From the IMG/VR virus record IMGVR_UViG_3300025011_000011, positions 1 to 44,056 of that record: 44,056 nt of DNA. One strand, written 5' to 3'. Both the position numbers and the translations under genes were made by a program. This document shows positions 7,252 to 43,722 of the stretch, piece by piece (position 1 is the stretch's first letter; every line of letters begins with the position of its first letter). This stretch comes from a virus. The notes under the pieces were generated by a model. It was not told where the DNA came from, searched no databases, and worked only from the letters and a program-made list of their open reading frames with translations.

Positions 7252-8367
7252 TTAGAAGAAAAGTCTTTTATTTTGGTCGTTACTTCCACTATTAGAAAAT
7301 AAGAAATCATAAATTGAACTTGCAAATCCACCTCCAGTATTTTGAGGTATTGAATTTAAAACAGTAGAGCGTATTTCTTGCGAACTAACCATAGGAAATT
7401 GTGATGATAATTTGGAAATAGCTTCGTCAGCATTTTCAGAAGTTAAATCTCCAGCATCAATATTTTTAGATATTTCATCATATACAGCATTTCTTTGACT
7501 AGTTTCATCACCTCCTTGAATTATATTATAATTTTCTTGGAAAGAAGCACCCGGGTCTAGTCTAACCTTTGGATTTATCTTTTTTAATTCGAGAAGTTCC
7601 GCTGAGGTTATTTGTTTGTCCGTACCTTTAGCTGAAGCCATCTTCATTTCCTGTGTAGTTTTTGCTATTTGTAACTTAGCAGCTTGAAGTTTCAAGTCTG
7701 ATTCTTCTATTGTTCGTTTATATGCTTCCTTATTTGCCTTCTTAAGTCTTTTCTCCATATCTTTTGTAGAACCGCTTGTTTTAAGACCAAGAGCCATTAG
7801 AGATGTTTTTAATGCATCTTTTTTAGTATCATTTGCTAATTTAGTTTCATATTCACCTAATTTTGAAGTAACAGATTCAAATGAATCTCCAAATGTTATT
7901 CCTGCTTTAGGATATTTAACCATTAATTCACGTTTCTGGTTTACTTCTTGCTCTCTTATTCCATAACGTGCAGCAAGTTCAAGATTTGCAGCTTGAATTG
8001 CTTGTTGTTTAACATTAGCAGTGTCGGCAAGAGCCTGTAGTTTATTTGACGCAATGTTTTGTGCTTGAGCTTGTTCTCCACGAATAACTCCTAACGCTTG
8101 TGGAAGATTTTCAATAGCCGTATTTTGATTCATCGCTGCTGTTTTTGCTGCAGTCAATTCATTTAGTGTTTTAGTATAATCAGTCTGAAGACCAGGTAAC
8201 CCAAGTTCATTTGATATTTGTGTGCGAATTCCTAAAAGGTCTCCTGGAGCTGCTGCTGGAGCTGTTGTAGCTTGAGCAATATTAGCCGAAGAATAAACCT
8301 GTTGAGGAGTTACAGTTAGCGGTTGAGCTGGTGCTAGTGCTGAATTAAGAGATATTTGTTCTGCCAT
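7252..8367 (-). CDS. Helical Ala/Gln-rich ejection protein
   Basis: 371 aa, almost entirely alpha-helical by composition, with Ala/Gln/Lys-rich coiled coils (IASNKLQALADTANVKQQAIQAAN; later KLQAAKLQIAKTTQEMKMASAKG). The C-terminus is Gly/Ser/Asn-rich. It lies 11 bases upstream of the 901-aa protein. Composition, length and order fit the second internal virion protein of a podovirus. Confidence 0.55.
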   Translation of the reverse strand: MAEQISLNSALAPAQPLTVTPQQVYSSANIAQATTAPAAAPGDLLGIRTQISNELGLPGLQTDYTKTLNELTAAKTAAMNQNTAIENLPQALGVIRGEQAQAQNIASNKLQALADTANVKQQAIQAANLELAARYGIREQEVNQKRELMVKYPKAGITFGDSFESVTSKLGEYETKLANDTKKDALKTSLMALGLKTSGSTKDMEKRLKKANKEAYKRTIEESDLKLQAAKLQIAKTTQEMKMASAKGTDKQITSAELLELKKINPKVRLDPGASFQENYNIIQGGDETSQRNAVYDEISKNIDAGDLTSENADEAISKLSSQFPMVSSQEIRSTVLNSIPQNTGGGFASSIYDFLFSNSGSNDQNKRLFF

Positions 8368-8380
8368 AGTTTTTGTTTAA

Positions 8381-8776
8381 TTATAATTTTGCTTTGTCAA
8401 TAAATATAAAGTACTTTAGATTAATTATTCTTGAAGCTCCAGTTGGACTTTCATAATCTATTCTTATTTTTATTTTTGTATCATCAGATCTTACTCCAAT
8501 CCTAATAAAATCATCAATAGCGTTATATTCTTGCCATGGCATAACAGCATATGTTCCATCATTATATACATCAAGTAGTACCTTAACTATTGGTGTATAC
8601 GGTAACCCATGATTTCCAGATAATGTTGTTATAAATCCAGAATTTATTGATCCGCTGTATGTTTCTGCGAAAGTACCTTTTAAGTTTTGATACTTACTTG
8701 TTATAACACAATCTATGTCGTTACAAGTTTTTACATCAAAATCATCATATGAAACTCTTATTCCATAGTTACTCAT
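8381..8776 (-). CDS. Tail/virion protein with one copy of a repeated domain
   Basis: 131 aa. The N-terminus NYGIRVSYDDFDVKTCNDID is homologous to two places in the neighbour at 8769-9527 (GIAVSQNGYNVKDSADRL and YGIRASKDGNDVKTCLDVDC). The domain continues with a GNHGLPYTPIVKVL strand pattern seen in the neighbour as HNLGYIPNF. Overlaps the upstream gene by eight bases. Probably a tail or fiber-associated protein built from domain duplication; function unknown. Confidence 0.6.
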   Translation of the reverse strand: MSNYGIRVSYDDFDVKTCNDIDCVITSKYQNLKGTFAETYSGSINSGFITTLSGNHGLPYTPIVKVLLDVYNDGTYAVMPWQEYNAIDDFIRIGVRSDDTKIKIRIDYESPTGASRIINLKYFIFIDKAKL

Positions 8777-9527
8777 TTAGTTTGTCTTTAAAAATAATAT
8801 AATATTCAGTATCTCCAGTTGATGATATCATTATTAAGTTTGTTAATGTTATATATCCACCTTTTTGATATTGAATATAATTATCTCCGCTGCTCTTGGT
8901 ATAATGCATGAAGTTTGGGATGTAACCAAGATTATGTAAAACAATTATATCTTCTCCATCCGTATTTAATACTGTATCTTTTTTATGTATTATTTGATTA
9001 AAAAATGAACTAGAAAAAGAACAGTCAACATCTAAACAAGTTTTTACATCATTTCCATCCTTGCTTGCTCTTATACCATAATTATTTGATGAGTTACCTA
9101 TTGAAGTTGTTGTGTTTATATTTCTTTCTGAGACAGTCCTAAAGTCATCTAGGAAAATATACACTGTAAAATATACGGTATCTCCAGCTGTTATATTACC
9201 TAAATCAAATACTGGTATTATATCTATTTCTAATTTATCAGAATAGTTTCTTGTTTGTAATTCATCTTCATTACCATCCTCAAATAAAAAACTCTCACTA
9301 AGTCCCCTTGTAGTATTACCATTATATTCTACTATGTATGGAGCAAAAAACCCTAAATCATGATCTATTGTTACAGTATTTGTTCCACTAGCAGGCATTA
9401 TTCCAGTAATAGAATATGTGTTAAATATTTTTAATGTTTGAAATGCACTTGAAAACACCTTTAATCTGTCAGCAGAATCTTTAACATTATATCCATTTTG
9501 ACTTACTGCTATTCCTAAATTACCCAT
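8769..9527 (-). CDS. Tail/virion protein with two tandem copies of the repeated domain
   Basis: 252 aa. Repeat 1 starts at residue 4 (GIAVSQNGYNVKDSADRLKVF), repeat 2 at about residue 150 (YGIRASKDGNDVKTCLDVDC); each has ~115 residues with a [ID]H[DN]LGY/F strand. Together with 8381-8776 there are three copies in two adjacent genes, indicating tandem duplication. Likely a beta-rich tail or receptor-contact protein. Confidence 0.6.
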   Translation of the reverse strand: MGNLGIAVSQNGYNVKDSADRLKVFSSAFQTLKIFNTYSITGIMPASGTNTVTIDHDLGFFAPYIVEYNGNTTRGLSESFLFEDGNEDELQTRNYSDKLEIDIIPVFDLGNITAGDTVYFTVYIFLDDFRTVSERNINTTTSIGNSSNNYGIRASKDGNDVKTCLDVDCSFSSSFFNQIIHKKDTVLNTDGEDIIVLHNLGYIPNFMHYTKSSGDNYIQYQKGGYITLTNLIMISSTGDTEYYIIFKDKLNE

Positions 9528-14209: not shown

Positions 14210-14541
14210 TTGTTCATCTCAGCTCCAATCAAGGATTCCTTCCTCCGAAGTTCTCTTGCTTGTGCGTCGAGTTTTAAATATGTATAAATTTTGTCTATTC
14301 TTGAAAGGTTATGTGGATTTCCTAGCATTACATCTAGCTCCATCAAATCTCTTCCTGCTAGCAACTGTGCAATTTCTGTTATCTTATCCATGATTCCATA
14401 ATTGAACATTTGCTCTTTCAAACCAAGAAAATCAGCTATCTCTAGATTCTCCATGGTCAATCCTACATCCTGCATTTCTGTGGGAATTGATTGAATCTTA
14501 TCTGATCCTTGTACTTCTTGTACTGGTTGTAATACTTCCAT
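14203..14541 (-). CDS. Small helical head/tail-joining protein, hypothetical
   Basis: 112 aa, helical, acidic. The centre LKEQMFNYGIMDKITEIAQLLAGRDLMELDVMLGNPHNLSRIDKIYTYLKLD resembles small phage joining proteins of unknown fold. Overlaps the adaptor gene by seven bases and the glycosyltransferase upstream by one base. Role inferred only from position. Confidence 0.5.
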   Translation of the reverse strand: MEVLQPVQEVQGSDKIQSIPTEMQDVGLTMENLEIADFLGLKEQMFNYGIMDKITEIAQLLAGRDLMELDVMLGNPHNLSRIDKIYTYLKLDAQARELRRKESLIGAEMNKW

Positions 14542-15335
14542 TAGCTTATAATTTCCTTAGAAAACCAAATTTGTCTAGTGTGTGGATCATATCCCCACTT
14601 GTCAATAAATCTCTTTCTATTTTCAACCTCTATTGCTCTTGATTCAATATCAAAATTAGAGTCTTGTTCCGTGAATCTTGTTGAACCTTCACGATGCCAA
14701 TACCATGACTTTGCGCTCATTATTAATTTTTTATTAAAATTGTCTCTCATTCTTAAGAATAAATCAATATCTTCATGTCCTCCTCGTACAAATCTTTCAT
14801 CAAATAATCCCACTTCCTTAAGGATACTTTTTTTACTCATCCATAATCCACCATCTTGCATTTGTTCACCAATAAGTCCTCCTTCTGTTATTTTTGTTTC
14901 TGATAAATCTGAAAGATGAATTCCATCTATCATTCTTAATTTACTGTGACAAATTCCAGTAACTCCAACATTTTCGTATTTAGTAAATGGTTCTATCATT
15001 GCTTCTTGCCAACCATTATAAACTTCAATATCATTATTTGCGCATACTATATATCCATCATTTTTACCAAGTTTAGAAATGGCTTTCTTGATACCCTTGT
15101 TACATGTTTTTGCAAATCCTAAGTTTTCTTTATTTTCTATATATATATCAACTATATCCTTTAAGAATGAAGCATCCATTGGACTAGCATCATTAACAGC
15201 TATTATTTCTGTATCTTTTGAATTATTTCTAAAACTTATTATAGCTTCTATTGTTAATTCTCTTAGAAGATTATTAATGATGTATACTGGAATTACGATA
15301 TAGGTTTTCATGCTTTTTTTTAAGTTTATTTTCAA
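14541..15335 (-). CDS. GT2-family glycosyltransferase
   Basis: 264 aa if begun at 15335; the ATG at 15311 (MKTYIVIPVY) is the more typical GT-A start, and both overlap the upstream gene. Features: VIPVY nucleotide-binding strand, NDAS, GFAKTCNKGI, ANNDIEV (DxD-like position), and GGHEDIDLFLRM, the ED motif of rhamnosyl/galactofuranosyl-type GT2 enzymes. It would transfer a sugar from a nucleotide donor. Third of three glycosyltransferases in the virion operon. Confidence 0.8.
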   Translation of the reverse strand: MKINLKKSMKTYIVIPVYIINNLLRELTIEAIISFRNNSKDTEIIAVNDASPMDASFLKDIVDIYIENKENLGFAKTCNKGIKKAISKLGKNDGYIVCANNDIEVYNGWQEAMIEPFTKYENVGVTGICHSKLRMIDGIHLSDLSETKITEGGLIGEQMQDGGLWMSKKSILKEVGLFDERFVRGGHEDIDLFLRMRDNFNKKLIMSAKSWYWHREGSTRFTEQDSNFDIESRAIEVENRKRFIDKWGYDPHTRQIWFSKEIIS

Positions 15336-16491
15336 GTTCTAAATTATAAATTAAACCATCACTCATTGAACCAGAAATCTTTCTGTAGAAATATAAAACT
15401 TCTTTTATTCTCTTTATTGTTGCACCAGTTTCTGCTGCTCTTATCCAAAAATCCCAATCCTCTAATCCACTATTGAATGTTTCATCATATCCACCTATTT
15501 TCTCCCATAAGTCCTTCTTAAAAGCTGAACATGCAATGAGTTTATTTCCATTTAGTATCATCTCTAATGTTATATCCTCTGCCCAATCACTCTTGGATGA
15601 GCTTTCTCCAAATTCTGAATGATCAGTGGTTACAATATCGTAATGATCTAGCTCGTAAACAACTTTTTCTAGATATGTTTTTTCTAATATATCATCAACA
15701 TCTAATGGTAATATGTATTTTCCTTTAGCCCTTCTTATTCCATCATTTCTTGCTGCAGATAAATTAGGTATATTAGAGATAACTACCTCAAAATTTCTAT
15801 ATGTTTGTTCCTGTATGCTCTGTAAGCATTGTGGAAGAAATCGTTCATATTCTCCCCATACTGGTATAACTATACTTACTATTGGATCTTCAACTCCAAT
15901 ATTTGAAAATGTAGTACTTGAAAATTGATATGAATAAATTTTTTCTCCATTCCAATTACCTCCAAGTCTATGATTTGGCATAAAAAAGTAACTTGGTAAT
16001 ATATCTATTTTGTACTGTGTTTTTTCGTATATATCTGTAAGATATTTATTTCCACAATCTATCCATGGTTCTCCAATATAGTCCTTAGATAATAATCCAT
16101 CAATAACTTCTTTTAAAAACTTATTTCCTTTAATTGCTCCAACTATAGGAGTCAATCTTCCAGGATAATGTACCTCGTTTTCGTAGCAAGTGAATGCTTC
16201 TCTATCTATTAATTCATCAATTGGATTTACACATTTACTATCTGCTGGAAGAGCTATTCCTCCCATATCATAAACTGCTTCATATCTAACTATGTCAGCA
16301 ACACCATGATATTTTTTTTCCTCCATTAACTTATTAATGTGTTTTCTATTTTTAAATGGATAGTTTTTTACTAAAAAGTTATCCCAAAGAATATATTTCC
16401 ATTCTGGATGAGCATTTTTCCATGTATTCATCCATTCTGTTGGTGGTTCTTTATCTCCAACCCAAACTTGATGTATTATTTTTTCAATCAT
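15274..16491 (-). CDS. Two-domain glycosyltransferase: GT32 (OCH1-like) + GT2
   Basis: 405 aa. Residues 1-~195 are GT32-like (IIHQVWVGDKEPP, WKYILWD, ADIVRYEAVYDMGG); the normal DxD after GG is replaced by LPADSK (81-86), so activity is uncertain. Residues ~204-395 are GT2 (SIVIPVWGEYE, LDVDD at 263-267, GLEDWDFWIRA). A bifunctional or scaffold/catalyst pair adding two sugars is possible. Four-base overlap with the nitroreductase-like gene upstream. Confidence 0.8.
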   Translation of the reverse strand: MIEKIIHQVWVGDKEPPTEWMNTWKNAHPEWKYILWDNFLVKNYPFKNRKHINKLMEEKKYHGVADIVRYEAVYDMGGIALPADSKCVNPIDELIDREAFTCYENEVHYPGRLTPIVGAIKGNKFLKEVIDGLLSKDYIGEPWIDCGNKYLTDIYEKTQYKIDILPSYFFMPNHRLGGNWNGEKIYSYQFSSTTFSNIGVEDPIVSIVIPVWGEYERFLPQCLQSIQEQTYRNFEVVISNIPNLSAARNDGIRRAKGKYILPLDVDDILEKTYLEKVVYELDHYDIVTTDHSEFGESSSKSDWAEDITLEMILNGNKLIACSAFKKDLWEKIGGYDETFNSGLEDWDFWIRAAETGATIKRIKEVLYFYRKISGSMSDGLIYNLELENKLKKKHENLYRNSSIHH

Positions 16492-17003
16492 TTACCTATT
16501 GCCATTGCCCCACAAAACCTCATTCCTTCCTTTTCTGGATATCCATTAGGATTTACAAAGCAACACTTTATATTCATTACCTCACAAATAAGGTATATAT
16601 TTTGAGCTACAAATCCAGCATCTAAGTATGGCATAAAATTTATTTCGTTTGGAGACTTATACGCTTGCATATTAGCATAAAACAATATTACCCTATCTGC
16701 TTTTTCTATCCATCCACGTCCTCCAACTAAGTTTTCAATTCCATCTTTAGTTTCAACCATTTCAATTGCTTTACGATTGCAAGAACTTGGTGCTAACATT
16801 CCGGATCTTAAGATGGTTTTCATCTCATCGTCACTAACGTTTTTGGTATAGATTCTTCTACTCCTTCGTTGTGACATGATCTTTAATAATCTATCTAAAT
16901 CTTCGTTGTCATATTTTCCAAATTCAATATCTGCTATTTCTCCAGATAAAAGTTTTTTCTTTCTATCTTGATGTGCTAAATATCTACATTGAAAATTATC
17001 CAT
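16488..17003 (-). CDS. Nitroreductase-family flavoprotein (shortened)
   Basis: 171 aa. RRSRRIYTKNVSDDEMKTIL...APSSCNRKAIEMV is the FMN-phosphate-binding N-terminal pattern of nitroreductases, and MPYLDAGFVAQNIYLICEVMNI matches the dimer/FMN helix. The chain ends at FCGAMAIGK, shortly after the usual 'GYP' position, so the C-terminal arm is short. The substrate is unknown; in this setting it might tailor a sugar or nucleotide. Unusual inside a phage morphogenesis operon. Confidence 0.7.
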   Translation of the reverse strand: MDNFQCRYLAHQDRKKKLLSGEIADIEFGKYDNEDLDRLLKIMSQRRSRRIYTKNVSDDEMKTILRSGMLAPSSCNRKAIEMVETKDGIENLVGGRGWIEKADRVILFYANMQAYKSPNEINFMPYLDAGFVAQNIYLICEVMNIKCCFVNPNGYPEKEGMRFCGAMAIGK

Positions 17004-17268
17004 TTTGATGAGTTCTTAAATGAGAAGCTAAACCTATTCTGCTTTTACAAACTTTTCCACATATTGCACATATATCATTTCCTTCTATCTCATTTACTAC
17101 TTCCTTTTTTATCTCATCTTTTTCTTTTTCATTAGATAATGATCCTACTGGTTCTATTTCTCTATTTTCTATAGCTACTCTTGCTGCATCGAAATCGAAG
17201 TCAACAATATCACCAACTTGATAACCCTCTCCCCATCTTCCTGCTGGTGCTGATAAAATTTTATACAT
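16996..17268 (-). CDS. Small protein with a C-terminal C2H2 zinc finger
   Basis: 90 aa. N-terminal ~40 residues (GYQVGDIVDFDFDAARVAIENREIEPV) look like the small beta module often seen in phage head-region proteins. After an acidic linker comes CAICGKVCKSRIGLASHLRTH: Cys-x2-Cys-x12-His-x3-His, a classic C2H2 finger spacing more typical of eukaryotes. The finger may bind nucleic acid or a partner protein. Overlaps the nitroreductase gene by eight bases. Confidence 0.75.
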   Translation of the reverse strand: MYKILSAPAGRWGEGYQVGDIVDFDFDAARVAIENREIEPVGSLSNEKEKDEIKKEVVNEIEGNDICAICGKVCKSRIGLASHLRTHQNG

Positions 17269-17271
17269 AAT

Positions 17272-19557
17272 TTATTTTAGGACTTTGTCCCAGTTTTTAG
17301 TTATTAATTTCCAATTAAATGTTTCTTTAGCCCACTCTTCTTCAACGGTTGAGTTCTTAAATGATGAAAACTTTATAGTATTAAGATATTTTCCAACATT
17401 TTCCGTATCTCCAAAAGTATTTTCTGTTTTCCATTTTTCACCAGAAGTATGTAGAACATCTCCAAAATTTACTATTTCTTTTAAAGCTGCAAAATCAGAT
17501 GTTATACAGTGGCATCCTGCTGCTTGAGCCTTTGATGCACTTATGCAGTGAATCTCATAGAATTGCGTCGGATAAAGAAATATTCCTGCTTCAAGATATT
17601 TTTTAGCTATAGCTTTATGAGAAATCATTATTCCTCCTTCAGCTCTACCTTCTTCTACAAGTTTTTGGAATCTTGCATTTTGTTTTTCATAGAAAGACAT
17701 TAATTCTTTATTGTCTTTATGCCAAGCTAGAAAGTTTCCCCAACCATAATACCAAGCTAATTTCCATGGTTTTTCTGGTTGTTCTTCAATGAGTTTTTCA
17801 AAGATATCAAGTGTAGCGTCAATGTGTCTATCTGGACTAGAAGTATTAAGAACGAGATATGGATTTCTTTCAATTTTTTCATTAAAAAGTGATACATCTA
17901 TTCCATTTGGAATAATTGAAAACTTTTCATCTAGTACATTTGGAAACAAATCTCTATGAGCTTTTGTTTTAACCATTATGCTGTGAAATTTCTCAACTCT
18001 ATCTGGTGTTAATTCTCCTTCTGGAAGTACATCATGTAAGTCTAATAGTATCTTTTTAGCGTTTAACTTAAAGTCTACTGGCTTAGGATGTCTCCACAAA
18101 ATAATGACGTCTTGTTTATCTCTAATATTGAATTCCCAATAAGGTTTATACATAACCCCATCGTATTCTTTTGCTGAATGTCCACAGTTATTATAAACTG
18201 TAACATTCCATCCAAGTTTGGATAATCCTTTAGATAGGTTTATTACTGCTTCTTCACTTCCACCAACTCCATCTTTTTCTGCTACTTCTGGATTCCATAT
18301 TTTATCAGTATAAGAACAGTAGTAAACTAGATCTTTTCCAGATGTTTCAGTTTTTACAAATTTTAAGTTCTTAAATATACAGAATTTAGGATGTGATTGA
18401 AACTTGAAATTATCACATAATATCTTAAGTTTGTCAATATCTTTAACTAACTCAGCATCTTTTATGAATTGATTTACAGCTTCTTCTATTTCTTGTTCCT
18501 TATTTAAAAGCTCTTCATACTCCTTTATATTTTCATTATCTGGATAAATCTTCTTACATCTTTTAAGAACTTCTATGGCGTTTTTAAATTCTTTCATTTG
18601 AAAATAAATATTAGCCAATACCATCATTGGATTAAAATCATAATCTCTAGGATTATACACAATAATAGATCGTTCTGGAATTTGTTTCTTGAGTCCTTCT
18701 AGTATAAAGTCCCTAGCTCTTTCTAGGTGTTTTGTTTTAGAAAGAAGTTCTCCAAGCTTAAGATATGCGTCTGGATAATTAGGTCTAATTGATAGTGCTT
18801 TTAAATAGTCATCTTCTGATTGTGATATATCACCAATCCTAAGATAAGCTATAAAAATTTCCTCTTCTGAATTAGAAACTGTTACGAATTTCTTTAAATA
18901 TTCAATAGCTTCTTTATCCTTACCTTCTCCTAAAAGAGCATTAGCTACTAACCATTCACCTCTTGGATCTCCTGGATGTTTTTCCATGAAAATACGAGCT
19001 ATTTCAATATTTCTTTCACTAGCTTTTTCTGCACGTTTTTCATTTGTTAAGTGCATTACTTCTATTTCATCAGTAAACATACTATTCAACTCTCTAAGTG
19101 GTGAAAAATCTTCGTGTATTTCTCCAACCCACTCAACAACTCCTCTTTTTACTAAGCGAGTTTTAAGATGTTTTACTGTGCATTTTTTTTGTGAATCAAA
19201 ATCATAAAGATAATTCATCACAATAGCGTCCATTCCATCTTTTTCAGATTTCGCTACTAGTGGTTTTAGTAATTCTGCACCACGAATAACATCGTCTGCA
19301 TCACACCAAAATATGTAATCTCCAGTTGTTTGTTTAAATGAAAAGTTTCTTGCTTTAGAAAAATCATTTTCCCAGTTAAAGAACGATTCAACACCTCCAT
19401 ATTTTGATATAACTTTTGAAACCTCTTTGTTAGGTTTTTCTCCAGCCTGTGTTATGCAAATCTCATCTACATTATTAGATAAATATTTTAAACATCTGTC
19501 TAAAAGTTTAGCTTCTTCATTAGATGGTTTTACAATCATTGCTAATGATAATTTCAT
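17272..19557 (-). CDS. Large bifunctional glycosyltransferase: GT2 + TPR + GT4
   Basis: 761 aa. Residues 1-~200: GT2 domain with WCDADD (84-89). Residues ~200-370: TPR-like helices (YPDAYLKLGELLSKTKHLERARDF; DNENIKEYEELL). Residues ~408-760: GT4-like (VGGSEEAVINLSKGLSKLGW, HDVLPEG, IPNGIDVSLF, YEIHCISASKAQAAGCHCITSD), a GT-B fold. It could assemble a glycan in two steps, on a virion protein or on the host surface. The start MKLSL repeats that of the next upstream small gene. Confidence 0.8.
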   Translation of the reverse strand: MKLSLAMIVKPSNEEAKLLDRCLKYLSNNVDEICITQAGEKPNKEVSKVISKYGGVESFFNWENDFSKARNFSFKQTTGDYIFWCDADDVIRGAELLKPLVAKSEKDGMDAIVMNYLYDFDSQKKCTVKHLKTRLVKRGVVEWVGEIHEDFSPLRELNSMFTDEIEVMHLTNEKRAEKASERNIEIARIFMEKHPGDPRGEWLVANALLGEGKDKEAIEYLKKFVTVSNSEEEIFIAYLRIGDISQSEDDYLKALSIRPNYPDAYLKLGELLSKTKHLERARDFILEGLKKQIPERSIIVYNPRDYDFNPMMVLANIYFQMKEFKNAIEVLKRCKKIYPDNENIKEYEELLNKEQEIEEAVNQFIKDAELVKDIDKLKILCDNFKFQSHPKFCIFKNLKFVKTETSGKDLVYYCSYTDKIWNPEVAEKDGVGGSEEAVINLSKGLSKLGWNVTVYNNCGHSAKEYDGVMYKPYWEFNIRDKQDVIILWRHPKPVDFKLNAKKILLDLHDVLPEGELTPDRVEKFHSIMVKTKAHRDLFPNVLDEKFSIIPNGIDVSLFNEKIERNPYLVLNTSSPDRHIDATLDIFEKLIEEQPEKPWKLAWYYGWGNFLAWHKDNKELMSFYEKQNARFQKLVEEGRAEGGIMISHKAIAKKYLEAGIFLYPTQFYEIHCISASKAQAAGCHCITSDFAALKEIVNFGDVLHTSGEKWKTENTFGDTENVGKYLNTIKFSSFKNSTVEEEWAKETFNWKLITKNWDKVLK

Positions 19558-19761: not shown

Positions 19762-20052
19762 TTAGTATGTTTGTGGTATAAGAAATTGAGGAAATCTTCT
19801 TGCTAACCATAAGTCTTCACCTTTCAGTTCTAGGAATCTTGGTTCTCCTATAGAGCCATCTAAAGAATTCCATAGTCCTTCTGAGAAACGAAATGTTCCT
19901 CTCATCTTACCATCCTTGGTTGAAGCTAATTCAGTGTTTGTTAATTTTCCTCTTTTTTCTTTTATAGAATTTAAAAGTAGTTTGTATTCTTCTTGGTGGT
20001 TCTTGATATAATTTTCTATTACATCTGTTATGAATTCTTGTCTATGCGTCAT
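19762..20052 (-). CDS. Small hypothetical protein following the chaperonin
   Basis: 96 aa. N-terminal helix (FITDVIENYIKNHQEEYKLLLNSI), then a basic segment and C-terminal GEPRFLELKGEDLWLARRFPQFL. It overlaps the chaperonin gene by 11 bases and is therefore co-translated with it. It lacks the beta-barrel mobile-loop pattern of GroES, so it is not an obvious co-chaperonin, though a functional partner role cannot be excluded. Confidence 0.55.
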   Translation of the reverse strand: MTHRQEFITDVIENYIKNHQEEYKLLLNSIKEKRGKLTNTELASTKDGKMRGTFRFSEGLWNSLDGSIGEPRFLELKGEDLWLARRFPQFLIPQTY

Positions 20053-21427
20053 TTCTTTGTATGAGTGCTGCCTCAGCTGTCAAGATTGATGTAGCTGTGG
20101 ACACCGCATTAGTTAATGCCGCTTTAATCACTTTAACAGAATCTTTTACATTATCAAGATTTCCAAGTTCTGATACACTTTTAACTCCACTATTTATCTT
20201 GATCTGTTCCATTGGAGACTGACATGCTATTTTCATTATCCTTTCTCCTTCATTCTTTGGAGTTCTAAACAAACTTTCTGCAATTAATGACAATTTGAAT
20301 CCAGCTCCAGTAACAAATCCTCCATCATAAGCCGATTTAGCTGCGTTAATAGCGTCTTCTACCTTTAAAACTATCTCTTGTCTTTCTACATCTGTTGGTT
20401 TGCCAACATGGACTATCCCAATTCCTCCAGATAAAAACGAAATTCTCTTTTTAAGTAACTCCTTGTTAAATTTTGATTCTTCTTTATCTAGTTTAGTTGA
20501 GAGTTTTTCTATATAATCTTTTACATTTCCATTTCCACCAATCAATGTTGTGTTTTCTTTATCAATAACAACTTTACCAGCTCTATTCCCAAATGCTTCA
20601 AGATCTTCAATATTAGTATCTAAATTTTTAACAGCTGCTACTTTAAATGTACCTTTCATTTTAAACTGAGTAATCAATGTGAGTGCGGTTTTATCCCACT
20701 GTGGTGCTATAACTACTGCTTCCATATCTCCATTTCCAGCTAATACTTGCAATTTTTTAGCTAAATCCTCAGCTTCAAATTTTTCTTTAAATATAATCAA
20801 TGGAATATCAAAGTATTGTTCACTGTCATCACTATAAAGTGCAACATTTTGTGAGCTAAATTGAATACCTTCAACTAATTCACTTTCTAACACATCCTTT
20901 TCTGTTTCTTCAATAATAATATTTGCATTTTCTCCAAGTTTTTCATGAATATATGCAATAATTTTACCAATTTTTGGATCTAAACTTGAAGTTGTTGCTA
21001 TTTTTTCAATATCTTTCGATGATTTTACTTTAGTAGCATCTTTTTTAAGCTGCTCCAAAACTAAATCTAATGAATATTGAATTTGTGCTCTTAATTCTCT
21101 AGGTGCTACAAGTTGAGTATCACTAATTAGTTCATTTAGTAGAGATTGTAATATAACCAAGGTAGTGGTAGTGCCATCTCCAGCTACATTATTTGTTTTA
21201 GATGCACATTGTTTAGCCAACATAATTCCAGCTTGCTCAATTTCATCCTTAACCTCAACTGCTCTTGCTATACTTACACCATCATTTATAATATCTGTCA
21301 AGTTTCCGTTATAAATAAGAACATTACGTCCATCTTTACCCATAGATACTTTAACTACATCGCAGCATTTATCTATTCCTTCCTTAATTTTTTGTCTGGC
21401 ATCATTGCCAAAAAGTATTTCTTTCAT
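20042..21427 (-). CDS. GroEL-like (group I) chaperonin, shortened
   Basis: 461 aa versus about 548 for E. coli GroEL. ATP site residues are kept: NDGVSIA (Asp 49 = GroEL D52), GDGTTTT (Asp 84 = D87), VEDAI (Asp 358 = catalytic D398). By eye about 27 residues are lost from the apical domain after KVAAVK and about 21 from the equatorial domain, and the GGM tail is absent. The polar/GroES-binding segment differs (EGIQFSSQNVALYSDD). It sits directly downstream of the major capsid gene, so capsid or tail protein folding is the likely job. No GroES gene seen. Confidence 0.9.
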   Translation of the reverse strand: MKEILFGNDARQKIKEGIDKCCDVVKVSMGKDGRNVLIYNGNLTDIINDGVSIARAVEVKDEIEQAGIMLAKQCASKTNNVAGDGTTTTLVILQSLLNELISDTQLVAPRELRAQIQYSLDLVLEQLKKDATKVKSSKDIEKIATTSSLDPKIGKIIAYIHEKLGENANIIIEETEKDVLESELVEGIQFSSQNVALYSDDSEQYFDIPLIIFKEKFEAEDLAKKLQVLAGNGDMEAVVIAPQWDKTALTLITQFKMKGTFKVAAVKNLDTNIEDLEAFGNRAGKVVIDKENTTLIGGNGNVKDYIEKLSTKLDKEESKFNKELLKKRISFLSGGIGIVHVGKPTDVERQEIVLKVEDAINAAKSAYDGGFVTGAGFKLSLIAESLFRTPKNEGERIMKIACQSPMEQIKINSGVKSVSELGNLDNVKDSVKVIKAALTNAVSTATSILTAEAALIQRNDA

Positions 21428-21445
21428 GTTGTTGTCCCAGAAGTC

Positions 21446-21492
21446 TGCAGGCTTAACGACTAATTAGACCTGCAAACCCCTGGGGTCGTTAA
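21446..21492 (-). ncRNA. Predicted pseudoknot in the leader of the chaperonin gene
   Basis: Between capsid stop and chaperonin start, minus-strand RNA contains TTAACGAC (21492-21485) complementary to GTCGTTAA (21460-21453) and TGCAGG (21474-21469) complementary to CCTGCA (21451-21446). The order a-b-a'-b' makes an H-type pseudoknot (8 and 6 bp) with a small CCC/GGG hairpin in the first loop. There is no T-run, so it is not a terminator. It may set the ratio of capsid to chaperonin expression. Confidence 0.5.
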
Positions 21493-21512: not shown

Positions 21513-21530
21513 TGAAAGCTATTACGCTTT
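21513..21530 (-). other. Hairpin over the major capsid stop codon
   Basis: Minus strand GAAAGC / GCTTTC (6 bp) with loop GTAATA spans the end of the capsid gene and its TAA stop. It may stabilise the abundant capsid mRNA or slow ribosomes before the downstream chaperonin leader. Confidence 0.4.
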
Positions 21531-22442
21531 CTTAAATCCAGTTGCAAAGAAGTTAGTATCTTGATTCCTTGTTTCCAAAGTCATTTTACCAACGATTGCT
21601 CGTGGATCACTATCTCCAGTTCTTGCGAGACCTGCGTCTACGTAAGGTTTCTTGAGATAAGCTACTTTAAGTTTCTCGGGGTTAATTCCAAGAATTCTTG
21701 CAGTAGCATCAGCAGCTACTTGAACGTATCGGTGTACATGTACACGTACTTTTCCAAGCCCAGTTTCAACAACATCAACAACTCTTACGATTTCTTTGAT
21801 GTTCAAACCAGTATTAACAACATTTGTTTTGTTGGTAAAGCTGTCAATCTGATCACGTAGGTAAGAACCTACATAGATATCAGTTGCAACATCACCATTG
21901 GTGTTGTCATATTGATTCTTCATCAAACCAGTAAGGATTGATGCTGAGAATACAGTTCCAGATGTATGAGCTGTTGTATTAGCTGCCTTCGAGATAGACA
22001 TGATAATACCACCCATACGTGGAGCTGTTCCTGAAGCGCCTGATACCAAAGAACCTCTTACCAAATCGTACTCAACTGAATTCATCCAGTTTTTCATTGC
22101 TTTGGTAGTTTGTCTTGCGAGTTCATTGTCGCCATGATAATGTTCAATTTCTTGCTGTGTTCGAGAAACCTCAAACGGATAAGCGCAAATTTGAACCAAG
22201 TTGGTCAGACGGGCTGGAGTTGTCAAAGTTTTGTTTGTGTACGCACCTGCTTCATTGGATGCCAATGAGCTAACGCTGTCCAAAGTATCAGTCAACACAT
22301 TGTGAACTGTTTGGATAGCAGATGTTTTACCAAGAGTATTGTGGATAAGATCTTCCGTTGCCGTAAGAATCTCAACCATTCCCAATACATCTTCTTTGAT
22401 GGATACGTCACCATAACTACGAAGAATTAAATCTTCTGCCAT
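21522..22442 (-). CDS. Major capsid protein (SU10/HK97-like fold)
   Basis: 306 aa. Pattern AGAYTNKTLTTPARLTNLVQICAYPFEVSRTQQEIEHYHGDNELARQ..KAMKNWMNSVEYDLVRGSLVSG...APRMGGI is that of the DUF5309/SU10-type major capsid family. It follows the acidic scaffold gene by 12 bases and has higher GC and codon regularity than most neighbours, as expected for the most abundant virion protein. Confidence 0.8.
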   Translation of the reverse strand: MAEDLILRSYGDVSIKEDVLGMVEILTATEDLIHNTLGKTSAIQTVHNVLTDTLDSVSSLASNEAGAYTNKTLTTPARLTNLVQICAYPFEVSRTQQEIEHYHGDNELARQTTKAMKNWMNSVEYDLVRGSLVSGASGTAPRMGGIIMSISKAANTTAHTSGTVFSASILTGLMKNQYDNTNGDVATDIYVGSYLRDQIDSFTNKTNVVNTGLNIKEIVRVVDVVETGLGKVRVHVHRYVQVAADATARILGINPEKLKVAYLKKPYVDAGLARTGDSDPRAIVGKMTLETRNQDTNFFATGFKKA

Positions 22443-28005: not shown

Positions 28006-29364
28006 ATGGAAAACAAAACTTGTTCAAATTGTAATGGAACTTTTGAGGTTGATGATATGGTGGTTCACAATGAAGATATATATTGTGAAGATTGTTTTAA
28101 TTATTTATTTACTACCTGCAGTATCTGCAATCAAACAATCTCAAACGATGAGTCGCACTATATTGATGATGAGATGTTTTGCGATAGTTGTTTTGATAAA
28201 AACTATTATGCTTGTGATGATTGTGGGGATATTGTTAAGCTAGAAAATACTAACGAAGTAACAAACGAAAAACTTGTTTGTAATAGTTGTTTTGATAATT
28301 ACCGAGAATGTGGCTCGTGTGGAGATTGGTTTGATTATAACGATAGTGGCGGTTATTGTGAAGATTGCGACCAGTATTATTGTTGTGATTATTGCCACTC
28401 TTGTGATTGTGGCACTAGTAATGATAATGAAAGAAAGATTAATTTAACTCCCATCACTGGCAGTGATTTTGGCGAAATTGTTAAAATTGATACGCTAGTA
28501 GGTGTTGAAATAGAGTCGGAAGATGGTAATTTTGAAATTGCACAAGAAAAATTACTAGATTGTTGCGGTTATAGTCCCGATGGTTCGCTTGATAATGGTA
28601 TGGAAGTACAAACACCACCAGCCAGCTTAAACGAATTAGAAAGAATAATTAATCATACTTGTAAAGTTCTTACTGATAATGAATTTGTTGTAAATAGTTC
28701 TTGTGGGTTGCATATTCACATCAACGCCAACAACAGCAGCTGGAAACAGGTTAGGAATTTTCTTTTAACTTATCTAATGTTTGAAGATGTTATCTATTCA
28801 TTTTTGCCACCATCTAGAAAAAATGGAACTTACAGCAAACCGCTTACTAATGATTTTAGTCAATTAAAACTTTTAAAGATTTCAAGTTTTAATGATTTTG
28901 AGGCGTATTGGTATGGCTCGGTTGCTGATAATATTGCTGATTTTTCTTACCGCGAAGCGTCTAAAATATGTAACCCATATCAAAACGTGGAAGAATTTAT
29001 GTCTGCCAGGGAAAAACTAGAAAAAGAATGGAATAAAAAGCGAGGCAAAGACTACCGCAAAGATTTAAAAAAGGATAAGTGGAATAATTCCAGATACTAC
29101 GGGGTTAATTTGCATAGCTTCTTTTTTCGTGGTACTGTGGAACTTAGACACCATAGCGGTACACTAAATCCCATTAAGATACTAAATTGGATTCAATTCA
29201 ATCTAGAACTTTTTAACAGATCTAAGCAACTAAATAGATCTTTACTTTTAAAAGCTAAGCAAGGAACTGGCAGAGATGCAATTGAGGCTATGTTTAATAC
29301 TTTACATTTAAGTAATAAAGAGTATTTCTTGGCTAGATTTGACTTTCTAAACAGAATAAGATAA
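28006..29364 (+). CDS. Amidoligase (ATP-dependent COOH-NH2 ligase) with N-terminal LIM-like zinc array
   Basis: 452 aa. Residues 1-136: about five treble-clef/LIM-like units, each CxxC...CxxC (CSNC, CEDC, CSIC, CDSC, CDDC, CNSC, CGSC, CEDC). Residues ~160-450: Amidoligase_2 family signatures GVEIE (166-170), DGS (192-194) with Glu 200, CGLHIH (233-238), and VELRHHSG (378-385). The family forms amide or isopeptide bonds with ATP; the substrate here is unknown. The next gene is a class II glutamine amidotransferase, which would supply ammonia or handle a glutamine substrate. A second such pair follows at 31540-33288. Confidence 0.85.
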   Translation: MENKTCSNCNGTFEVDDMVVHNEDIYCEDCFNYLFTTCSICNQTISNDESHYIDDEMFCDSCFDKNYYACDDCGDIVKLENTNEVTNEKLVCNSCFDNYRECGSCGDWFDYNDSGGYCEDCDQYYCCDYCHSCDCGTSNDNERKINLTPITGSDFGEIVKIDTLVGVEIESEDGNFEIAQEKLLDCCGYSPDGSLDNGMEVQTPPASLNELERIINHTCKVLTDNEFVVNSSCGLHIHINANNSSWKQVRNFLLTYLMFEDVIYSFLPPSRKNGTYSKPLTNDFSQLKLLKISSFNDFEAYWYGSVADNIADFSYREASKICNPYQNVEEFMSAREKLEKEWNKKRGKDYRKDLKKDKWNNSRYYGVNLHSFFFRGTVELRHHSGTLNPIKILNWIQFNLELFNRSKQLNRSLLLKAKQGTGRDAIEAMFNTLHLSNKEYFLARFDFLNRIR

Positions 29365-29396: not shown

Positions 29397-30326
29397 ATGT
29401 GTGGACTATTTGGCTATATAACTAATAAAGATACTATTTTAACCGCAGAACAGCGCAAAAAAAGAACTAGAATTGCTATTGCGCTAGGTATTTCAATGGA
29501 AACAAGGGGAGAAGATAGCACTGGTATATCTTTGATTGGTAAGAAGTATGATATACTTAAAGCAATCAAGCCAGCGAGTAAATTTTTGCCAAAGATTAAA
29601 AATTCTTTTAATTTCAAACATAATTTACTAATTGGACACACTAGATTTGCGACTATTGGAGCTATTACTAATCGCAACGCCCACCCATTTTTAATCAATA
29701 ACATAATAGGAGCACACAACGGATCAGTAGATAACTATTTAACCTTTGACCATAAAGGAGAAGTCGACAGCGAGGTTATTTTTGCAGAACTAGGTAAGCA
29801 GAATAACGACTATAAAAATGTGTTAAAGCGTCTAAGTGGTTCGTTTGCCTTAACTTGGTACAATGTAGGAATTGAAAAGCTTTTTATTGCTAGAAACACT
29901 AACCCACTTGCTACCGCCTATATTAAGGAAATAGATACTATTTTCTGGTGTAGTGAAGCTGAATACTTAAAGCCAATAATATCTACACAATTTGACCTCA
30001 AAAAGGTTAAAATTGACTATCCGTTAGCTGATTATGTGTATGAAATTGATTTTAGTTTAAAGATAACAAAGAAAAAAATATCTTTTGCTGCTAGAGCTTA
30101 CGCTGGAAATTACTACAACAACGGGCACTATAACGATTATGATTTCAAAGAAGAAGAGTTAAGCGGTGTTGATGATTTTGAATATTGTGCTTACTGTGGA
30201 GAGCCTATCAACGAAGACGAAACTAATTTTTTCAGTGATGAGCTTGATTGCTATTTTTGCCCATTTTGTGCTGAAGCTGCAAGTTATGATGGTGCTAATG
30301 TAGTTCCTATAATTCTAAATAAATAA
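29397..30326 (+). CDS. Class II glutamine amidotransferase, partner 1, with zinc-binding tail
   Basis: 309 aa. N-terminal nucleophile Cys 2 (MCGLFGY), RGEDSTGI (37-44), HTRFATIG (81-88), HNG (107-109) and VDSEVI (123-128) form a complete GATase-II active site. The C-terminus has a LIM-like Cys cluster (YCAYCGEP...DCYFCPFC) like that of its amidoligase neighbour, suggesting the two bind each other or a common partner. It hydrolyses glutamine to release ammonia; used with the ligase it would permit amidation of a carboxylate. Confidence 0.85.
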   Translation: MCGLFGYITNKDTILTAEQRKKRTRIAIALGISMETRGEDSTGISLIGKKYDILKAIKPASKFLPKIKNSFNFKHNLLIGHTRFATIGAITNRNAHPFLINNIIGAHNGSVDNYLTFDHKGEVDSEVIFAELGKQNNDYKNVLKRLSGSFALTWYNVGIEKLFIARNTNPLATAYIKEIDTIFWCSEAEYLKPIISTQFDLKKVKIDYPLADYVYEIDFSLKITKKKISFAARAYAGNYYNNGHYNDYDFKEEELSGVDDFEYCAYCGEPINEDETNFFSDELDCYFCPFCAEAASYDGANVVPIILNK

Positions 30327-31539: not shown

Positions 31540-32514
31540 ATGAACAATTTTTATGATACTTTTAAGCTAGGTATAGAGGTAGAGGGAGAATTCTTTTCTG
31601 ATTGTCCAGAAATTGGATTATCCCATTGGACAGTTGATGAAGATGGATCTATGGATGAAATTGGATTTAAAAATCTAGATACATTTTGCTGGGAACTTCA
31701 AAGTAAAGTAATAAAAAGTGAAGAGGATGAAAAAGAAACACTTAATGATTTGTTAAAATTATTAAAAGTTAAATCTGGATTTGGAAGGGAAATAATTGCT
31801 ACAAGAAACAATTCTTGTGGAACACATATTCATTTCAGCTTCAAAAAAGTAAGCGACCACCTACTTTATCTTTTCGATACTATTGAATTTGAAAAATACT
31901 TCTTTAAAAGATATTTATCATTTTTTAAGAATCAAAAATTCATTTCTAGGCTTGAAAATAAGTATTGTCGTGCTTTTGCTAGTAGAGAAAGTGGTAAATT
32001 TAACTTCTCACTATTAGATATTGAAAATAAGAAAAAAAATAGAGATAAATATTTTTGGCTCAACGTTAGATCTATTTCACAAGGTACTGGTATTGAAATT
32101 AGGGTATTCCCACACATGCAAACAATATCTGGAATAAAAGAAGTGATTGAGTTTACTAAATCTGTTGTTAATGGATTTTATAATCTAAAGACAACACCTA
32201 AAAAACTTAAACTTATAAATTTTTTCTTTAACAATATTTACAACAAAAGATTTGATGAGAAAAAACTTTCAGATCAAAAGCAAATAATATTCAAAGGTCT
32301 AGATATTAGAGATTCTTCTGATATTTCTGGAGATGTTATGATTATGCTATCTAAATGGGCTATTAAAGCCCCTAAAACAATAGCTCCTACTAGAAGACAA
32401 CGTAGACGAGAGCTATCAATTGAGACACATGATAGTGGATACAGCGTGGAATATATGGCTAATAATATTATAGGTCAATTTAACACTCCAACACGTCTTA
32501 GAGCACCATTTTAA
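31540..32514 (+). CDS. Amidoligase 2 (COOH-NH2 ligase)
   Basis: 324 aa. Shares the amidoligase signatures with 28006-29364: GIEVE (11-15), DGS (35-37) with Glu 52, CGTHIH (93-98), GIEIRVF (184-190). It has no zinc-finger region, and sequence outside motifs differs strongly, so this is an ancient paralogue or an independent acquisition, not a recent duplicate. Its own promoter lies at 31391-31419; the next gene is again a class II amidotransferase. Confidence 0.8.
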   Translation: MNNFYDTFKLGIEVEGEFFSDCPEIGLSHWTVDEDGSMDEIGFKNLDTFCWELQSKVIKSEEDEKETLNDLLKLLKVKSGFGREIIATRNNSCGTHIHFSFKKVSDHLLYLFDTIEFEKYFFKRYLSFFKNQKFISRLENKYCRAFASRESGKFNFSLLDIENKKKNRDKYFWLNVRSISQGTGIEIRVFPHMQTISGIKEVIEFTKSVVNGFYNLKTTPKKLKLINFFFNNIYNKRFDEKKLSDQKQIIFKGLDIRDSSDISGDVMIMLSKWAIKAPKTIAPTRRQRRRELSIETHDSGYSVEYMANNIIGQFNTPTRLRAPF

Positions 32515-42320: not shown

Positions 42321-42476
42321 ATGGTATTTGGAGAAATTATAGTCCTGTTATTGATTTGTTTGGCAGTATTTTTCATTGGAAACACATTTGGAGAAATTAT
42401 TGTGGCAAAATTAATAAGAGACTATCAAGATAAAAAAGAGTTAAATAATAAAAAAATTAATAAAATACTTAAATGA
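42321..42476 (+). CDS. Tiny membrane protein before the SPFH gene
   Basis: 51 aa. EIIVLLLICLAVFFIGNTFGEIIVA forms one long hydrophobic helix, then a basic tail (DYQDKKELNNKKINKILK). Ends in an ATGA overlap with the SPFH gene, so made together with it and possibly its partner. Confidence 0.6.
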   Translation: MVFGEIIVLLLICLAVFFIGNTFGEIIVAKLIRDYQDKKELNNKKINKILK

Positions 42477-43372
42477 AGAATAAAAAAGGAAATGGACTCA
42501 TTGGAGGAATTATACTTTTTGCAATCCTAATTGTTGGAATTGTAGCTGCTACAAAAGTATACTCAATTAGTCCAGGAAATGTAGGTGTTCTTATTTATAA
42601 GGGTGGACAAAGTACTAAGGGAGTTTCAGATACGCCACTAACACCTGGATGGGGATTTAGAAAATTATTCGTAGAAGATGTTAAAGAATATCCAACGTTC
42701 TTACAGACTGCTATCTGGACTAAGAGTTCACAAGAAGGTTCTAAAGATGATGAAAGTATCACTGCTAACTCAAAAGAAGGTGTTCCAGTAAATATGGACG
42801 TTTCACTTTCATACACACTAGATGGATCAAAAGTTCCAGATTTGTATGTTAAATATCGTTCAAGCATTAAAGATATCCAAAAAAACTTCCTAAGACAGTC
42901 TGTGAGACAAGCAACACAGGACGCGTTTGGAACTTATTCAGTTGAAGAGATTTATGGAGAAAAGAAACAGGAAATTGCATCAAAAATAAAATCATCACTT
43001 ATTGATGGTGTAGGAAAGGATGGATTTGATTTTTCTCAATTCACAATTAACGAAATTAGACTTCCAGAAAACATCATGGTTTCTATAAACCAAAAGATTC
43101 AAGCTGGTCAAGACGCACTAAAAGCTGAACAGAAGTTGAAGCAAATTGAGGTAGAAGCCAACCAACGTATCGCTGAAGCTCGTGGAAATGCAGAAGCAAG
43201 AATTGCAAATGCCAAGGCAGAAGCTGAAGCAATTCGCATACAGGCAGAAGCAGTTCAAAGTCAAGGTGGAGCAGATTACGTTCAACTAAAGGCTATTGAG
43301 CGTTGGGATGGAAAATTACCTACGCAGCAAATACCAGGATCAACAGTTCCTTTTGTTAATCTTACAAAATAA
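42473..43372 (+). CDS. SPFH/band-7 (prohibitin-like) membrane protein
   Basis: 299 aa. N-terminal anchor GLIGGIILFAILIVGIVAA (8-26), SPFH core YSISPGNVGVLIYKGG...PGWGF...TANSKEGVPVNMDVSLSYTLD, and a coiled coil rich in Ala/Glu (LKAEQKLKQIEVEANQRIAEARGNAEARIANAKAEAEAIRIQAEAV). Such proteins oligomerise on membranes and often control proteases. In a phage it may protect or remodel the host membrane. Overlaps the signal peptidase gene by one base. Confidence 0.85.
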   Translation: MKNKKGNGLIGGIILFAILIVGIVAATKVYSISPGNVGVLIYKGGQSTKGVSDTPLTPGWGFRKLFVEDVKEYPTFLQTAIWTKSSQEGSKDDESITANSKEGVPVNMDVSLSYTLDGSKVPDLYVKYRSSIKDIQKNFLRQSVRQATQDAFGTYSVEEIYGEKKQEIASKIKSSLIDGVGKDGFDFSQFTINEIRLPENIMVSINQKIQAGQDALKAEQKLKQIEVEANQRIAEARGNAEARIANAKAEAEAIRIQAEAVQSQGGADYVQLKAIERWDGKLPTQQIPGSTVPFVNLTK

Positions 43373-43722
43373 TGAACATAATACTTTCACTTCTACTATT
43401 TTTTATGCCAATGACTGAATACATAGTATCTGGAAGTGGAAGTATGAACCCTACTTTTAAAGGAGGAGAGGTGGTTGAAACATACCACTCCTCTCCCAAA
43501 GTAGATGATATTATAGTGTTTGAGTGTGGTAACTTTAAAAAATGTCATTCAAAAGTTCTCATAAAAAGAATAAAAAAAATAGATAATTATTGCTATTTTG
43601 TTGAGGGTGATAATCAACCATCATCATGGGATAGTAACGACTACGGATGGTTATGTGGAAACGAAATAAGGATACTGGGGGTAGTAAAAAACGTAAGACA
43701 CGCACAGAGCGTCAAAAGTTGA
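43372..43722 (+). CDS. Minimal type I signal peptidase (S26)
   Basis: 116 aa. One N-terminal membrane helix, SGSGSMNPTF with catalytic Ser 24, VLIKRIKK with general-base Lys 65, and EGDNQPSSWDSND corresponding to box E (GDN...S.DS). All boxes are present in a protein shorter than bacterial LepB. It should cut pre-proteins at the outer face of the membrane. Its 3' end overlaps the NinG-like gene by 70 bases in another frame. Confidence 0.8.
   Translation: MNIILSLLLFFMPMTEYIVSGSGSMNPTFKGGEVVETYHSSPKVDDIIVFECGNFKKCHSKVLIKRIKKIDNYCYFVEGDNQPSSWDSNDYGWLCGNEIRILGVVKNVRHAQSVKS

Follow-up and report, generated by a model that had tools for sequence, protein, structure and literature searches.

Phage-encoded chaperonins

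GroEL-like chaperonins are encoded in the genomes of the giant phages EL (gp146), OBP (gp246) and AR9 (gp228), in which they work without a co-chaperonin (PMC9598537; PMC7185714). It was reported that the EL chaperonin does not bind the GroES of E. coli and that its putative substrate is an endolysin (PMC7185714), and the capsid proteins of lambda and T4 are described as clients of GroEL (PMC9598537). Short chaperonins are also found in Crassvirales with genomes of ~100 kb, as is the case of phi14:2 (490 aa), cr108_1 (494 aa) and cr111_1 (510 aa).

The chaperonin analysed in the present study belongs to a phage of ~44 kb. It shares with the EL, OBP and AR9 proteins the phage origin and the GroEL-like character and, with EL, which was aligned here, the catalytic aspartates. 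However, the EL protein is full length (558 aa), its apical domain comprises 204 residues against 186 in GroEL, and both K51 and the hairpin region discussed below are kept. EL, the one of the three included in the tree obtained here, stood apart on a very long branch at its drawn root. The Crassvirales chaperonins resemble the present one in being short and, for cr108_1 and cr111_1, in lacking the hairpin at positions 479-481 of GroEL, but they differ in a nearly full apical domain (179-180 residues), in the presence of Y199/F204, K51 and P33 and, in cr111_1, in a 10-kDa chaperonin annotated nearby. We consider it reasonably probable that the protein is a reduced, ATP-driven, lid-independent group I-like chaperonin acting on one or few late phage proteins; as the best explanation, it would resemble the EL/OBP/AR9 chaperonins in function, yet represent a separate and more reduced lineage.

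The stretch of DNA analysed, here called the window, comprises 44,056 nt, and its first and last 127 bases form an exact terminal repeat. Identical terminal bases are the usual mark of a circular or circularly permuted genome, and the window is probably a complete circular genome of 43,929 bp. With this repeat the record is taken as probably whole, and the lack of a Cpn10 gene therefore carries weight.

Identity and predicted fold

As proposed by the first-pass annotation, a chaperonin gene is found at positions 20042-21427 of the minus strand, coding for 461 aa. This product matched Cpn60_TCP1 from Pfam (E=4.6e-17; 62.3 bits against a curated cut-off of 34.3), PHROG 5725, 'chaperonin groEL' (3e-72), and experimentally solved GroELs of the PDB (7e-61). 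Structure prediction, which had been suggested as a check, returned an AlphaFold monomer with a mean pLDDT of 91.7 and a pTM of 0.83 (input of 39 related sequences), corresponding to a confident three-domain chaperonin subunit with equatorial, intermediate and reduced apical domains. In this model, the helices matching GroEL H (219-231) and I (246-258) were kept, and only a seven-residue helix (273-279) occupied the site of the helix J unit. The 50 best Foldseek matches in the PDB were GroEL/Hsp60 structures throughout (E from 1e-36 to 1e-33), and the highest TM score (0.91, by query length) was obtained for the ATP-bound mitochondrial Hsp60. The apical lid protrusion of group II chaperonins (thermosome/CCT) was absent from the alignment, in which the apical domain presented deletions and no insertion, and the best matches were to group I proteins.

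Judged by these matches, the 461-aa protein is a genuine, group I-like member of the Cpn60/TCP-1 superfamily. It resembles cellular GroEL (group I, Cpn60) in the order of its three domains, the nucleotide motif and the catalytic aspartates, and it is unlike it in being 87 residues shorter and in the loss of the Gly-Met tail. It also fails two features of GroEL proper, namely the apical contacts, treated below, and the score in the NCBIfam equivalog TIGR02348, for which 247.7 bits were obtained against a cut-off of 582.1.

Related phages and selection

Scans of viral contigs revealed seven further phages carrying the same short chaperonin, designated L007, L028, L109, L108, L137, L149 and L147, the last of which is partial. 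The contigs L003 and L004 correspond to the window's own phage and are outside this count, and L006, near-identical to L007, was grouped with it. The chaperonins of this clade range from 448 to 470 aa; L007 shared 70% identity with the window protein and the remaining relatives about 43-46%, against only 26-34% for chaperonins outside the clade. The phylogeny with other viral chaperonins that had been called for placed six members in one separate clade with 100/100 support, and two more members were added through their major capsid protein (MCP) neighbours. The nearest row outside the clade was the chaperonin of L030, with weak support (92/50). The clade may have been sighted in viromes before.

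Two sets of apparent relatives were set aside. The 449-aa chaperonin of L117 presented a full apical domain and lacked only the C-terminal end, being probably truncated, and the high-scoring matches labelled as Enterococcus, Listeria or Acinetobacter phages look like host DNA, as in L021, in which the gene lies beside pckG and groS.

The short length relative to cellular GroEL and the low identity to chaperonins outside the clade are also what a functionless, decaying gene acquired from a host could present. However, the deletions and the synteny are common to eight diverged phages, the frames are open and the AlphaFold model is confident. Between L028 and L109, dN was 0.13 and dS about 2.1, the latter near saturation, and with dN far below dS the short chaperonin is under strong purifying selection. 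The conservation largely refutes gene decay, which we regard as hardly credible.

Regions lost relative to GroEL

Residues were assigned to domains from an alignment of 50 chaperonins, with the E. coli GroEL (548 aa) as reference. The shortfall of ~87 residues estimated in the first-pass annotation was exactly 87, distributed among the apical domain (35), the C-terminal equatorial part (26), the C-terminal tail (21) and the N-terminal parts (5). A full-length apical domain was not found, since the region corresponding to GroEL 191-376 comprised 151 residues instead of 186, with 27 lost in 269-319, six in 191-230 and small changes elsewhere. The C-terminal equatorial part (GroEL 409-526) was reduced from 118 to 92 residues, of which 18 were lost in 467-494 and eight in 426-466, and a single residue was left of the 22-residue tail, as had been noticed. 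The gaps counted by eye, 27 in the apical and 21 in the equatorial domain, were approximately right, although the total losses are larger in both domains.

The apical deletion junction corresponds to residues about 268-281 (positions 20585-20626, minus strand), in which 24 residues stand for the 51 of GroEL 269-319 and GroEL ~280-312, which we take to be helix J plus the following strand, is absent. The equatorial junction is found at residues about 414-428 (20144-20188, minus strand), lacking GroEL ~464-490 together with the N479-A481 hairpin. Both events extend to the relatives: all eight clade chaperonins presented 150-154 apical residues, with 23-24 in place of the 51, a missing ~280-312 segment and a shortened 199-209 loop, and the 479-481 hairpin of the nucleotide pocket was missing in the seven members complete in that region, as well as in cr108_1, cr111_1 and L030.

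The L030 chaperonin (516 aa; 7813-9363) is like the clade in N51, in the loss of P33 and in a trimmed equatorial part, with 83 residues left in 409-526, and unlike it in the full-length apical domain (185 residues) and in a gene located away from the MCP. On alignment it has the appearance of an intermediate, which would place the loss of the equatorial loop ahead of that of the apical unit.

Concerning the nucleotide site, the catalytic aspartates predicted from the first reading were confirmed by the alignment, in which D49, D84, D358 and D429 correspond to GroEL D52, D87, D398 and D495, and D84 lies in the nucleotide-binding GDGTTT motif (21161-21184, minus strand). These aspartates and the motif were kept in all complete members, D495 being outside the partial L147. 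The glycine preceding the catalytic aspartate of the motif (G86), a rarely varied position, was replaced by Asn in L028 and by Asp in L147 only. Moreover, K51 was changed to Asn and P33 was lost in every clade member, and these changes, together with the missing hairpin, indicate that ATP handling may differ. They would also suit a chaperonin-derived protein with a non-folding role, such as an ATP-independent holdase or an assembly scaffold. This we hold to be improbable, given the catalytic residues kept in complete members, with G86 varying in two phages, and the occurrence of N51 in the full-length GroELs of Moranbacteria/BMS3Abin15, which keep seven of the eight lid/substrate contacts. Since N51 is found in these proteins with ordinary contacts, it is by itself no argument for the loss of ATPase activity, and an ATP-driven chaperonin is still the preferred reading.

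Search for a co-chaperonin

It had been noticed that no GroES was visible in this genome, and the detection of one would have counted against that reading. The Cpn10 profile (PF00166) gave no match in the window at E<=10 and none in six related contigs. As a sensitivity control, the same profile scored above the cut-off in 5 of 13 phage records (phi38:1, elemoA, immuto, DAC16 and Va1), stayed below it in cr108_1 and missed the annotated 10-kDa chaperonin of cr111_1. Custom phage GroES profiles including this cr111_1 protein, applied to all ORFs, retrieved nothing credible (best E in the window 2.2). A recognisable GroES is therefore absent from the window, although a highly divergent lid could escape the search.

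The apical surface was evaluated at Y199, Y203, F204, L234, L237, L259, V263 and V264, which are mutagenesis sites of GroEL for substrate and GroES binding. By strict scoring, the window chaperonin kept three of these eight contacts and the clade members three to five, with losses of Y199, L234 and mostly V264, besides the shortening of loop 203-209. In phages with a detected Cpn10, the counts were eight in immuto, seven in Va1, and five to six in phi38:1 and elemoA. The independence from GroES is considered likely because several of the contact positions are also gone, and the loss of the helix J unit, of most of the 199-209 loop and of several lid/substrate contacts renders capping by the host GroES unlikely. 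The precedent of EL, OBP and AR9, invoked in the first-pass annotation, agrees with this reading.

A lid could still be provided by an unrecognised phage protein, and the gene next to the chaperonin was the candidate. P96 (19762-20052, minus strand) codes for a 96-aa orphan protein, predicted to be helical and similar in size to GroES. The P96 start and the chaperonin stop overlap by 11 bases in three phages (the window, L007 and L028), by 17 in L108 and by eight in L109; the two genes of L137 are separated by another short ORF. It is kept in all members whose contigs cover the region, and PF00166 is known from the control to miss divergent phage lids. However, the AlphaFold model of P96 is helical (pLDDT 83.6), whereas GroES is a beta-barrel, and its profile comparison with the E. 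coli GroES gave a probability of 0.1%. No family match and no PDB match by Foldseek were obtained for P96, the only matches being weak ones to uncharacterised viral proteins. In addition, relatives of P96 follow the MCP in the contigs L151-L155, partial sequences in which no chaperonin was found. P96 was thus rejected as the default co-chaperonin, and the preferred view is that it belongs to the capsid block and flanks the chaperonin by chance. With the GroES contacts largely lost as well, a ring that still requires a cap, from the host GroES or from a phage lid such as P96, is judged rather improbable, and the lid-independent ring is retained.

Capsid neighbourhood and the probable client

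The gene directly upstream of the chaperonin (21522-22442, minus strand) codes for an SU10-type MCP (PF17236, SU10_MCP; E=1.4e-47). In all eight chaperonin-bearing phages the chaperonin is found downstream of such an MCP, and this order holds even when the large terminase is distantly similar or unmatched. Wherever the contig covers the region, the chaperonin is followed by P96 and then by a TPR-containing glycosyltransferase (17272-19557, minus strand), a conserved neighbour recognised by Pfam and synteny. Related TPR-glycosyltransferases occur in the Manatee Spring phages ctKR88 and ctf1B273, and three glycosyltransferases and a short nitroreductase-like gene are inserted in the structural operon (14541-19557, minus strand).

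From the position of the gene, a dedicated role in capsid or fiber folding had been proposed. The invariant adjacency would favour a late, perhaps capsid, client, and because of it the MCP is the leading single candidate; even so, we hold the MCP as client only tentatively, and the remaining late proteins, taken jointly, are the more probable source of the client. The stricter possibility, in which the MCP encoded on the same transcript would be the sole client, finds support in the gene order of the eight phages and in the lambda and T4 capsid proteins, known clients of GroEL (PMC9598537). Against it, at least five relatives (L151-L155, partial contigs), with MCPs 54-56% identical, carry the MCP, P96 and glycosyltransferase genes as a block whose chaperonin slot is empty, and the proposed substrate of the EL chaperonin is an endolysin, not an MCP (PMC7185714). 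In the MCP tree, these relatives may nest among the chaperonin-bearing phages with weak support (85/70), in which case the chaperonin would have been lost while the MCP was kept. A chaperonin may be located elsewhere in these genomes, which are covered by partial contigs. Its function appears dispensable in some lineages, and the empty slot implies that an SU10-type capsid fold does not universally need a chaperonin. The adjacency to the capsid gene stood in every chaperonin-bearing phage, the dedicated role was weakened, and an exclusive service to the MCP is doubtful.

An RNA pseudoknot at the capsid junction

Between the MCP and the chaperonin start codon, an H-type RNA pseudoknot with stems of 8 and 15 bp was predicted (21438-21492, minus strand). 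Six phages presented such a structure after the MCP stop, with stems of 8-10 and 7-9 bp outside the window, and none of 300 shuffled sequences per phage was as good in any of the six. The stems differ on both sides between phages, and a search in Rfam gave no family match. The pseudoknots start at positions 10560 in L007, 9957 in L028, 9951 in L109, 616 in L108 and 8299 in L137, and L147 and L149 also carry one (from about 5807 and about 5577, respectively); in chaperonin-bearing phages, 3-13 bases separate the pseudoknot end from the next start codon. A role as chaperonin regulator was considered and rejected, because the same kind of structure follows the MCP in L151, L153, L154 and L155, with no chaperonin adjoining, and the pseudoknot is accordingly viewed as a feature of the capsid junction.

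Other elements were observed in these regions. ORFs similar to HNH or zinc-finger endonucleases surround the chaperonin block in L007 (10561-11022), L147 (from about 5856) and L028 (12005-12316); that of L007 is an HNH ORF placed between the pseudoknot and the chaperonin, whose start it overlaps by ATGA. In L147, an apparent second copy of the hairpin precedes the chaperonin, and L030 presents strong pseudoknot-like structures, including one that follows its putative capsid gene.

Other features of the genome

An abiF RNA (RF03085) with the conserved GCCUCUCAACGAUGC core was detected at 225-260 on the minus strand (43.8 bits against a 37-bit cut-off), adjoining two tRNA-like genes. No Abi_2 protein (PF07751) was retrieved from this apparently complete genome by a search whose control was weak, and the RNA would be an orphan copy, which may act as a decoy against host Abi systems. 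The early region harbours, on the plus strand, an unusual set for a phage, comprising two Amidoligase_2 proteins and class II glutamine amidotransferase-like genes (28006-29364, 31540-32514 and 29397-30326), and at 42473-43722 (plus strand) the gene of an SPFH/band-7 protein precedes that of a signal-peptidase S26-like protein.

Proposed function and implications

In the proposed mechanism, the chaperonin subunits very likely assemble into a ring, which would bind and hydrolyse ATP by means of the conserved catalytic aspartates. One or few phage proteins of the same late operon would be protected or folded by this ring, which would use no GroES and act as an open structure without a lid, with helices H and I kept and the helix J unit lost. 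The most specific version is a distinct chaperonin lineage, carried by podovirus-like phages with small genomes (~44 kb), whose apical domain was itself pruned, with an open, lid-free ring specialised for a single late protein, plausibly the neighbouring capsid protein, as the outcome; it is regarded as unlikely in its full form.

Folding by chaperonins without encapsulation is still a matter of question, and the EL protein, for which it was proposed, is full length. The clade described here represents a naturally reduced chaperonin of about 48-50 kDa, selected despite the missing lid contacts and apical unit. With close relatives that do without the chaperonin also at hand, it becomes directly testable which minimal parts a chaperonin needs and how a phage chaperonin is linked to its client.
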